Below the pieces are notes generated by a model. That model saw only the letters and a program-made list of their open reading frames with translations, had not been told where the DNA came from and did no database searches. From an uncultured Bacteroidota bacterium (lineage in GTDB: Bacteria; Bacteroidota; Bacteroidia; Flavobacteriales; Flavobacteriaceae), in the NCBI GenBank assembly GCA_902561795.1, contig CACERG010000002.1, forward strand, positions 1-64,000: a stretch of DNA of 64,000 nt, in the 5' to 3' direction. The translations under genes were made by a program, and so were the position numbers. The number at the start of each line of letters is the position of its first letter. The stretch's first letter is position 1. Positions 36,067 to 44,680 of this stretch are shown here, in pieces.

Positions 36067-36096
36067 TTGGATGAAAAAAAAGTTGTCGTATATTTG
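36067..36096 (+). promoter_or_regulatory. Promoter of rpmH (TTG-N19-TATATTTG)
   Basis: TTG at 36067-36069 and TATATTTG at 36089-36096 are separated by 19 bases, a full match to the Bacteroidota housekeeping promoter pattern, 38 bases before the rpmH ATG. Confidence 0.7.
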
Positions 36097-36134: not shown

Positions 36135-36293
36135 ATGAAAAGAACATTCCAACCCTCGAAGAGGAAAAGAAAAAATAAGCATGGTTTTAGAGAAAGGATG
36201 GCTACAGCTAGTGGGAGAAAAGTTCTTTCTTCCAGACGTGCAAAGGGCAGAAAAAAGTTGTCAGTTTCTTCTGAACCAAGACACAAAAAATAA
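36135..36293 (+). CDS. rpmH: 50S ribosomal protein L34
   Basis: A 52-residue, highly basic protein missed by the ORF track: begins '[22 protein letters not shown]' in three-part L34 style and ends '[19 protein letters not shown]'. The '[23 protein letters not shown]' core is characteristic of L34. ATG at 36135, TAA at 36291-36293. It has its own promoter and is closed by a strong intrinsic terminator 22 bases downstream. The usual rpmH neighbours (rnpA, dnaA) are absent; that is common in this phylum. Confidence 0.98.
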
Positions 36294-36314
36294 ATGACAA
36301 AATATTATTTTCAT

Positions 36315-36352
36315 AAAGGTGTTACTTTTTTTATAGGTAACACCTTTTTTTT
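36315..36352 (+). terminator. Intrinsic terminator between rpmH and carB
   Basis: AAAGGTGTTAC (36315-36325) pairs perfectly with GTAACACCTTT (36337-36347) around an 11-base loop, followed by further T residues to give a run of eight. Only 15 bases separate the T run from the carB ATG, so it may also act as an attenuator. Confidence 0.9.
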
Positions 36353-36367
36353 ATTTAAATTATAAAC

Positions 36368-39217
36368 ATGCCTAAAGTCAATTCTATCAAAAGTATTCTT
36401 GTTATAGGTTCTGGTCCAATTATTATTGGCCAAGCATGTGAGTTTGATTATTCAGGGTCGCAAGCTTTAAGATCCTTAAGGGAGGATGGTATCAAAACAA
36501 TCCTTATAAATTCTAATCCAGCTACAATCATGACCGATCCTTCTATGGCTGATCATGTCTATCTTAAACCATTAAACACAAAATCTATAATTGAAATTCT
36601 TAAAAAACACAATATTGATGCTGTATTACCAACTATGGGAGGACAAACTGCTCTAAATCTTTGTATTGAAGCAGCAGATAAAGGAATTTGGGAAGATTTT
36701 AATGTAAAAATTATAGGAGTAGATATTGACGCTATTCAGATTACAGAAGATAGAGAAAAATTTAGAGAGTTAATGACTAAGATAGGTGTGGAAATGGCAC
36801 CACAAGCTACAGCTAATTCTTACTTAAGAGGTAAAGAAATTGCTCAGCAATTTGGTTTTCCTCTTGTAATTCGCGCTTCCTATACCCTCGGTGGGGCAGG
36901 AGCTTCTTTTGTTCATAAAGTAGAAGATTTTGATGAATTACTAACTAGAGGTTTAGAAATTTCTCCAATCCATGAGGTAATGATAGATAAAGCATTAATT
37001 GGGTGGAAAGAATACGAGCTCGAGCTGCTAAGAGATAAAAATGATAATGTTGTAATTATATGTACTATTGAAAACATGGATCCGATGGGAATTCATACAG
37101 GTGACTCAATCACTGTTGCACCAGCAATGACTCTTTCGGACAAAACTTTTCAAAGGATGCGTGATATGGCAATCCATATGATGAGAAGTATAGGAGACTT
37201 TGCAGGTGGATGCAATGTTCAGTTTGCAGTAAGTCCTGATGAGAAAGAAGATATTATTGCTATAGAAATTAATCCGCGTGTTTCTAGATCATCTGCTTTG
37301 GCTTCAAAAGCCACAGGCTACCCAATTGCAAAAATTGCTGCTAAACTTGCTATAGGATATAATTTGGATGAGCTTGAAAATCAAATCACTAAATCAACAT
37401 CAGCTTTATTTGAACCAACCTTAGATTATGTAATTGTAAAAATACCTAGATGGAACTTTGATAAATTTGAGGGATCGGATCGTACTTTGGGATTACAAAT
37501 GAAATCTGTTGGAGAGGTTATGGGAATAGGAAGATCTTTCCAAGAAGCACTTCATAAAGCAACCCAATCACTTGAAATAAAAAGAAATGGTCTTGGAGCA
37601 GATGGTAAAGGCTATAGTGATTATGATACAATAATAAGCAAATTAACTTTTGCGAGTTGGGATAGAGTTTTTGTAATTTATGATGCCATTCAAATTGGTA
37701 TTCCGCTCTCGAGAATTCACGAAATCACAAAAATAGATATGTGGTTTTTGAAGCAATATGAAGAGCTATATGAATTAGAGCAACAGATCTCGAAATTTAA
37801 TGTAAGTACGATTGATAGTGCAACGCTTCTCGAAGCAAAGCAGAAAGGTTTTGCTGACCGACAAGTAGCTCATATGTTAAAATGTTTAGAAAGTGAAGTA
37901 TATGACAAAAGAATTGAATATGGTATTAAAAGAGTTTATAAACTTGTTGATACTTGCGCAGCTGAATTTGCTGCAAAAACCCCCTATTATTACTCAACTT
38001 TTGAAGCTAAGGTAAAATTCAAAGGTAAAATCCCCTTAAGTGATAATGAAAGCAAGGTAACAAAACGAAAAAAAATTGTAGTTCTTGGTTCAGGACCCAA
38101 CCGAATAGGACAAGGTATCGAATTTGACTATTGTTGTGTTCACGGAGTTTTAGCTGCAAGTGAGTGTGATTATGAAACGATTATGATCAATTGCAACCCT
38201 GAAACTGTTTCAACTGATTTCGATACGGCCGATAAATTGTATTTTGAACCTGTATTTTGGGAGCACATTTATGATATTATTCAGCATGAAAAACCAGAAG
38301 GTGTTATTGTTCAATTGGGAGGTCAAACTGCATTAAAGCTAGCAGAGAAATTAGACCGCTATGGAGTAAAAATAATTGGAACCAGTTTTAAATCACTTGA
38401 CTTAGCCGAAGATAGAGGGAGTTTTTCTTCACTTTTAAAAGAAAATAAAATTCCATATCCAGAATTTGGAGTTGCCCAAACAGCTGACCAAGCATTAGAA
38501 CTTGCAGAAAAATTAGATTTCCCTATTCTTGTCCGACCCTCTTATGTGTTAGGTGGCCAGGGAATGAAAATAGTAATCAACAAAGAAGATCTTGAAGCTC
38601 ATGTTGTTGATTTACTTCAAAAAATACCAAATAATAAGTTATTACTTGATCACTATCTCGACGGAGCTATTGAGTGCGAAGCTGACGCGATATGTGATGG
38701 AAAAAATGTTCAAATAATCGGTATAATGGAGCATATTGAACCCTGTGGAATTCATTCGGGAGATTCAAATGCGACTTTACCAGTTTTTAATCTTGGTGAA
38801 TATGTAGTTCAGCAGATTAAGGATCATACCCATAAAATAGCTTTGGCACTGAAAACGGTGGGTCTTATAAACATACAATATGCTGTGAAAGAAGATAAAG
38901 TTTATGTTATTGAAGCAAATCCTAGAGCATCTAGAACAGTCCCATTTATAGCTAAGGCTTATAAAGAACCTTATGTTAATTATGCCACTAAAGTAATGTT
39001 AGGGAAAAATAAGGTAATTGATTTCGATTTTAAACCTCAACTTAAAGGATATGCCATAAAACAACCAGTTTTCTCATTCAATAAATTTCCAAACGTTAAT
39101 AAACAATTGGGTCCTGAAATGAAGAGTACGGGAGAGAGTATTTTATTCATAGATAGTTTAAAAGAAGATGAGTTTTATGATTTATATTCAAGAAGGAAAA
39201 TGTACCTAACTAAATAA
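36368..39217 (+). CDS. carB: Carbamoyl-phosphate synthase large subunit, without allosteric domain
   Basis: A 949-residue enzyme forming carbamoyl phosphate for pyrimidine and arginine synthesis with CarA, which is not in the window. It has the duplicated ATP-grasp architecture: first half opening 'SILVIGSGPIIIGQACEFDYSG', second half 'IVVLGSGPNRIGQGIEFDYC', each with 'VLPTMGGQTALN' or 'VIVQLGGQTALKL' and 'EINPRVSRSSAL' or 'EANPRASRTVP'. It ends soon after the second ATP-grasp ('GPEMKSTGE'), so the MGS-like C-terminal domain binding UMP or ornithine in the 1,070-residue E. coli enzyme is missing, as I recall for other flavobacterial CarB. It follows directly on the rpmH terminator. Confidence 0.97.
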   Translation: MPKVNSIKSILVIGSGPIIIGQACEFDYSGSQALRSLREDGIKTILINSNPATIMTDPSMADHVYLKPLNTKSIIEILKKHNIDAVLPTMGGQTALNLCIEAADKGIWEDFNVKIIGVDIDAIQITEDREKFRELMTKIGVEMAPQATANSYLRGKEIAQQFGFPLVIRASYTLGGAGASFVHKVEDFDELLTRGLEISPIHEVMIDKALIGWKEYELELLRDKNDNVVIICTIENMDPMGIHTGDSITVAPAMTLSDKTFQRMRDMAIHMMRSIGDFAGGCNVQFAVSPDEKEDIIAIEINPRVSRSSALASKATGYPIAKIAAKLAIGYNLDELENQITKSTSALFEPTLDYVIVKIPRWNFDKFEGSDRTLGLQMKSVGEVMGIGRSFQEALHKATQSLEIKRNGLGADGKGYSDYDTIISKLTFASWDRVFVIYDAIQIGIPLSRIHEITKIDMWFLKQYEELYELEQQISKFNVSTIDSATLLEAKQKGFADRQVAHMLKCLESEVYDKRIEYGIKRVYKLVDTCAAEFAAKTPYYYSTFEAKVKFKGKIPLSDNESKVTKRKKIVVLGSGPNRIGQGIEFDYCCVHGVLAASECDYETIMINCNPETVSTDFDTADKLYFEPVFWEHIYDIIQHEKPEGVIVQLGGQTALKLAEKLDRYGVKIIGTSFKSLDLAEDRGSFSSLLKENKIPYPEFGVAQTADQALELAEKLDFPILVRPSYVLGGQGMKIVINKEDLEAHVVDLLQKIPNNKLLLDHYLDGAIECEADAICDGKNVQIIGIMEHIEPCGIHSGDSNATLPVFNLGEYVVQQIKDHTHKIALALKTVGLINIQYAVKEDKVYVIEANPRASRTVPFIAKAYKEPYVNYATKVMLGKNKVIDFDFKPQLKGYAIKQPVFSFNKFPNVNKQLGPEMKSTGESILFIDSLKEDEFYDLYSRRKMYLTK

Positions 39218-43629: not shown

Positions 43630-44208
43630 CTAAGAAGCACTAGAGATAAAGTTAATTAATTTCAAAGTTGCTTTTCCTCTATGACTAATTTGATCTTTAA
43701 TACCATTTCCTAACTCAGCAAATGTTTTTTTATATCCTTTTGGAATGAAAATGGGGTCATAACCAAAACCATTATTTCCCCGCTTTTCAAAAATAATTTT
43801 ACCATAAACTTTTCCTTCAAAGCAAAAGGTTTGATTGTTTAGGTGTAAATAGAAAATTGATCTTAAAGTGGCTGCTGGATTTGAAATATTTTCAAGTTTT
43901 TTCCAAATTTTTTCGATATTCTTATCATTATTTTTTGATGGACCAGCATATCTAGCTGATAAAACTCCAGGCTCACCTTCCAGAAAATCAATTTCTAATC
44001 CAGAATCATCTGCAAAACAATTTAAACCAAATTTTTTTCTAATGAAATCTGATTTAATTTTTGCATTTTCTTCCAAAGTTCTACCTGTTTCTTCTATAGG
44101 GTTTAAATAATTGATATCATTAAGACTCCAAAGAACTATTGATTTCGGAAGAATTCTTCTTAATTCAACAACTTTGTTTTCATTATGTGTTGCAAAGATT
44201 AAATGCAT
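43630..44208 (-). CDS. rdgB: Non-canonical purine NTP pyrophosphatase (RdgB/HAM1)
   Basis: A 192-residue housecleaning enzyme hydrolysing ITP, dITP and XTP to monophosphates to keep them out of DNA and RNA. Seen: 'IFATHNENKVVELRRIL' at the start, 'CFADDSGLEIDFLEGEPGVLSARYAG' with the metal-binding Asp, 'GFGYDPIFIPKG' and 'ISHRGKAT', all diagnostic of the family. It starts one base after the rlmH stop, so the two form a transcription unit. Confidence 0.97.
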   Translation of the reverse strand: MHLIFATHNENKVVELRRILPKSIVLWSLNDINYLNPIEETGRTLEENAKIKSDFIRKKFGLNCFADDSGLEIDFLEGEPGVLSARYAGPSKNNDKNIEKIWKKLENISNPAATLRSIFYLHLNNQTFCFEGKVYGKIIFEKRGNNGFGYDPIFIPKGYKKTFAELGNGIKDQISHRGKATLKLINFISSAS

Positions 44209-44209
44209 A

Positions 44210-44680
44210 TTAATTATTGTGATATGGGTGGTTATTTATAATAGTGAAGGCTCTATAAAGTTGTTCACAAAAAAATAATCTGATCATCTGATGAGAAAAC
44301 GTCATCCTTGAGAGAGCAATCCTAATGGGGAAATCATCATAAAACTTTTTTGATAAACCATAAGCCCCACCAATTATAAAGATAATTCTTTTTTTACCGG
44401 TATTTATATAGCTTTTAATTTCACAAGCAAAATCAATAGAATTTAACATCTTTCCTTTTTCGTCTAATATAACGACAATGTCATTGGGAGTTATTTTTTT
44501 TTGTATTTGCTGATATTCTTTTTCTTTTAGTTGTTTTATGTTAGTTTTTTTTGTCTTTGTCTCTTCGACACATACAAAAGAAAATTTAATGAAACGCAAT
44601 ATTTTTATTTTATAAGCTTCTAACTCATCTGAAAAATATTTTTTTTTGGTTTTACCAACGAATAATAGTTGAATTTCCAT
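44210..44680 (-). CDS. rlmH: 23S rRNA pseudouridine-1915 N3-methyltransferase RlmH
   Basis: A 156-residue SPOUT-class methyltransferase acting on the ribosomal decoding-site helix 69. Seen: 'IIFIIGGAYGLSK' SAM-binding knot and the conserved C-terminal 'SRMTFSHQMIRLFFCEQLYRAF' followed by 'NNHPYH'. Size matches E. coli RlmH (155). First gene of the rlmH-rdgB unit, divergent from the BrkB-family gene. Confidence 0.97.
   Translation of the reverse strand: MEIQLLFVGKTKKKYFSDELEAYKIKILRFIKFSFVCVEETKTKKTNIKQLKEKEYQQIQKKITPNDIVVILDEKGKMLNSIDFACEIKSYINTGKKRIIFIIGGAYGLSKKFYDDFPIRIALSRMTFSHQMIRLFFCEQLYRAFTIINNHPYHNN

Follow-up and report, generated by a model that had tools for sequence, protein, structure and literature searches.

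Introduction

Three described systems come closest to the arrangement between rpmH and carB treated here: intrinsic (Rho-independent) terminators, Bacteroidetes promoters of the sigma-ABfr type, and attenuators of the pyrBI or PyrR type, in which a terminator precedes a pyrimidine gene. Sigma-ABfr promoters carry a -7 element of the form TTTG or TAnnTTTG (PMC7366714; PMC6847099). In F. johnsoniae this element extends from T-12 and A-11 to G-5, AT-rich sequence occurs at -18 and -28, the -33 signal is weak, and transcription starts 4–5 nt after the -7 element (PMC6847099); the -7 consensus of B. fragilis is identical (PMC7366714). The searches made found no literature on control of rpmH-carB, and nothing on point for overlapping terminators and promoters or for PyrR in Bacteroidetes.

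The rpmH-carB Locus and Its Terminator

The locus lies in the window, by which we mean the whole 64,000-nt stretch of Flavobacteriaceae DNA analyzed. The window genome is a fragmented assembly (81% complete), of which 275 kb was sampled for promoter counts; gene starts in control regions were taken from the longest ORFs. On the forward strand, rpmH (36135–36293) encodes the 52-aa ribosomal protein bL34 (Pfam L34, 7e-24), and carB (36368–39217) encodes the 949-aa carbamoyl-phosphate synthase large chain (Pfam CPSase domains), both gene names being confirmed by Pfam. The predicted rpmH promoter (36067–36096) is of textbook Bacteroidetes type, with TTG (36067–36069), a 19-nt spacer, and TATATTTG (36089–36096); it has the top -7 score near the locus (7.98) and is kept across the window's genus.

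The 74-nt interval between the genes contains a predicted intrinsic terminator (36315–36352), consisting of a stem, a 7-nt loop, and eight T (36345–36352). The arms, AAAGGTGTTAC (36315–36325) and GTAACACCTTT (36337–36347), form 11 perfect pairs, reaching 13 when T-G and T-A are added, and 15 nt separate the end of the T-run from the carB ATG at 36368. The interval folds with -15.7 kcal/mol (z -4.4), a value equaled by none of 200 shuffles. In these particulars the sequence-only reading, which had reported a perfect 11-bp stem, a T-run ending at 36352, and a carB start at 36368, was correct.

That reading had also named relatives as a check on the hairpin and its spacing. We fetched 130 rpmH-carB loci (at least one record occurs twice). 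They come from the window's own genus, from almost every genus sampled in the family, and from nine further families of the order; a clear terminator is kept in 128 of them, representing about ten families. An rpmH gene directly before carB was not found in Cytophagales, Sphingobacteriales, or Chitinophagales loci, or outside the phylum. When 107 distinct homologous hairpins are compared, pairing is preserved in 98.8% of pair cells, and several kinds of pair occur at almost every position; because pairing persists through compensatory changes, we infer that the hairpin is under selection as a structure. A general terminator scan of a 15-kb region found five candidates vs. 5.1 in shuffles, i.e., no excess, and the argument for a terminator is therefore drawn from the strength and conservation of this particular hairpin. 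On both counts, it is best regarded as the ordinary, strong, and conserved intrinsic terminator predicted for rpmH.

Part of the family additionally has a 14-bp palindrome, TTAACAATTGTTAA, immediately 3′ of the rpmH stop codon (L051, L154, L176, and others); it was counted in 12 loci, or 18 when one variable base is allowed, and none was seen in the window's genus.

A Predicted carB Promoter Downstream of the Terminator in Relatives

In relatives, the sequence that follows the T-run is enriched in -7 elements. Strict TAnnTTTG occurs in 25 of 128 post-T-run tails vs. 3.7 (sd 1.9) in dinucleotide shuffles, in a count over related genomes, which are non-independent samples. The spacing from T-run to -7 element is fixed, as 20 of the 25 strict matches begin 15–16 nt after the run, but the distance to the ATG varies (mostly 18 to 43 nt). 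In 34 of 92 loci the looser motif TAnnTTT begins 15–19 nt past the T-run, vs. 0–9% in every other 5-nt window, and the -7 shape is visible in alignment columns +16 to +22 (family) and -13 to -7 (genus). A recognizable -7 element at the expected place is missing from more than half of the family and order loci. Because the -7 element sits 15–16 nt on, applying the F. johnsoniae geometry would place the T-run at about -34 to -28 of the carB promoter.

This layout is rare elsewhere in the one relative in which other terminators and promoters were compared: none of 24 other co-directional terminators in 400 kb has a TAnnTTTG-type -7 element at 15–16 nt, and a T-run is correspondingly placed at just 3 of 41 other promoters. 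For this reason the terminator-promoter composite is not a general by-product. We conclude that, in part of the loci of family relatives, a predicted sigma-ABfr-type carB promoter is fused to the rpmH terminator.

Directly after the T-run, ATAYC is strongly conserved in carB loci of the family; in the genus, ATAC likewise comes after the terminator that separates rpsA from pyrR.

Gap Shortening and Loss of the -7 Element

Within the window's genus, the gap between T-run and ATG is 23–28 nt (about 25) in 24 loci outside the window's species group, and TATATTT commonly lies about 5 nt before the carB ATG; the predicted start site would therefore be at or adjoining the ATG, giving a near-leaderless carB mRNA. 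Two further relatives have a gap of 22 nt and an intermediate stage of -7 decay. The window species (G000) and its two closest relatives (G018 and G010) have a 15-nt gap and have lost the -7 element. The window gap, ATTTAAATTATAAAC (36353–36367), is the site of the carB -7 element in relatives and is eroded to TAAATTAT / TATAAAC. Thus, the statement of the sequence-only reading that TAnnTTTG is absent between rpmH and carB holds for the window; moreover, no -7 element above chance was found in the rpmH-carB gap of the window genome or its two nearest relatives, and 87% of shuffles match the highest -7-like score obtained for the window gap with a -7 model seeded with TAnnTTTG. In most single sequences of the genus, too, the -7 element is not significant alone (p 0.12–0.45).

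Such an absence is to be read against the window genome as a whole. In the 275 kb sampled, 132 genes have 50 nt or more of upstream sequence, and strict TAnnTTTG precedes just 43 of them; for this reason the lack of a consensus -7 element by itself counts for little against the presence of a promoter in these bacteria. Where they occur in the same 275 kb, TAnnTTTG elements concentrate within 30 nt of start codons, and several are only 4–9 nt away, so that tight placement of a -7 element against an ATG does occur in this genome. The earlier assertion that the terminator leaves no room for a separate promoter consequently fails for the genus, given also the -7 elements after the T-run in relatives. 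Its corollary, that carB must depend on read-through or on a promoter overlapping the terminator, is borne out by relatives as regards overlap (-7 element 12–16 nt past the T-run); read-through may occur in the window species, because the carB promoter is eroded there.

Gap length falls as genome size falls (rho 0.44, p 0.0007, n 57 genera, in a statistic that ignores kinship).

The pyrR-pyrB Operon

A layout like that of carB recurs in the window's genus at the pyrR-pyrB operon, which sits behind the rpsA terminator. Upstream of pyrR, many members of the genus have a T-run, ATAC, and then TACTTTTG or TATTTTTG about 16 nt past the run; in the window genome, the -7-like TATTTTTA lies 15 nt past the rpsA T-run (L049 2200–2240; G000:C13, about 44200–44240). 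In other Flavobacteriaceae, pyrR is mostly not behind rpsA with such a layout, which suggests that the pyrR composite is restricted to the genus and a small number of relatives.

A pyrimidine-specific promoter motif, TTTTTTATAY-N10-15-TAnnTTTG, was tried on 13 genomes. It gave 17 matches, and a reversed control gave a similar number, so a genome-wide pyrimidine regulon was rejected. Eight of the 17 matches belong to carB or pyrR; of the rest, at least two likewise lie behind a hairpin, one of them before an aroQ-like gene.

Many Flavobacteriaceae genera have a short inverted repeat (typically TCCAAATACGTTTGGA) downstream of the predicted start site and upstream of the pyrR ATG (L270–L295). Its arms are at least 5 bp in 16 of 29 cases vs. 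2.8 expected, and one CTGAA/TTCAG case has changed on both sides. This repeat may serve pyrR as an autoregulatory RNA hairpin or as an operator.

Transcription of carB

We favor, with a probability of roughly 0.6, the reading that carB is a separate transcription unit with its promoter fused to the rpmH terminator. Transcription of rpmH would end at the intrinsic terminator and carB would be transcribed separately; the T-run would form the AT-rich upstream promoter region (about -34 to -28), with the TAnnTTTG-like -7 element following 15–16 nt later. Genome streamlining may have shortened the gap, so that in the genus TATATTT, 5 nt before the ATG, would yield a carB mRNA with almost no leader. 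The window's own species group has a 15-nt gap and a decayed -7 element, and carB is probably transcribed there from a weak relic promoter together with basal read-through, and attenuation would play no part. A different account of this group, which we consider rather unlikely, is that the carB promoter has been lost altogether, leaving unregulated read-through of the rpmH terminator as the only source, such that the carB level tracks rpmH transcription. The 15-nt gap and the chance-level -7 scores in G000, G018, and G010 are what it predicts, as is the weaker terminator of G018 (-11.5 kcal/mol); however, the terminator of G000 is still strong (-15.2 to -15.7 kcal/mol), and two thirds of the window-genome genes whose upstream sequence reaches 50 nt or more have no strict -7 element, yet most of these must be transcribed. 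Initiation of carB transcription within the hairpin or 5′ of it is highly improbable. Moderate -7 scores (3.8 and 3.7) belong to TATTTTCA at 36306 and TACTTTTT at 36323, and TATTTTCA was seen by eye in G000, G018, and G010, all three of which have lost the downstream element; nevertheless, the gap shuffles score equally well in 87% of cases, and any transcript begun there would run into the terminator immediately.

The sequence-only reading proposed attenuation control of carB. A regulated attenuator of this kind, with the hairpin sensing pyrimidines or arginine (in the manner of pyrBI, PyrR, or a leader peptide, with Arg-rich rpmH as the leader), is not supported. It is true that the terminator has a strong promoter on one side and a pyrimidine/arginine gene on the other, that the window genome codes for PyrR, and that the rpmH product is Arg-rich, but an antiterminator was not found: duplexes with the 5′ arm were no better than in shuffles (4 of 86 at p < 0.05, the chance level), and a longer fold retained the terminator and offered no alternative structure. 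No Rfam leader family passes at gathering or permissive thresholds, and the PyrR-site family has no match upstream of carB or of pyrR. The stem starts 18–34 nt past the rpmH stop codon in all rpmH-carB loci except one, and a ribosome stopped at that codon would usually not reach so far, given its footprint, which sets these loci apart from pyrBI. In the window, the stop lies 21 nt before the stem, and translation therefore does not overlap the hairpin; a leader-peptide role for Arg-rich rpmH is possible in principle, without supporting structure. On the duplex, Rfam, and spacing results, and with the predicted promoter of relatives lying downstream of the terminator, attenuation was rejected as very improbable.

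Returning to the fused terminator and promoter, the locus illustrates how a compact genome can let a terminator and the promoter that follows it occupy the same DNA. The graded series, from fixed spacing through a shrinking gap and near-leaderless start to loss, offers a test case for promoter erosion before an essential biosynthetic gene. A bolder version, which we put forward as doubtful, would have the composite fixed in Flavobacteriaceae carB, driven by compaction to a near-leaderless form in the genus, and destroyed in one species group, where carB would have come to depend on terminator leakage; were this dependence true, the supply of pyrimidine and arginine precursors would follow ribosome synthesis.

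Comparison With Known Systems

With pyrBI- and PyrR-type attenuation, the locus shares a terminator before a pyrimidine gene; it differs in having no leader overlap, antiterminator, or PyrR-binding element, and in that the predicted carB promoter of relatives is downstream of the terminator. With Bacteroidetes sigma-ABfr promoters (PMC7366714; PMC6847099), it shares the TAnnTTTG-like -7 element in relatives and AT-rich sequence near -28, whereas the AT-rich part at carB would be the terminator T-run and the -7 element is unrecognizable in the window species. With intrinsic terminators, it shares the GC-containing perfect stem, the eight T at the gene end, and the compensatory pairing; the sole difference is that in relatives the rpmH T-run would double as upstream promoter sequence for the gene that follows.
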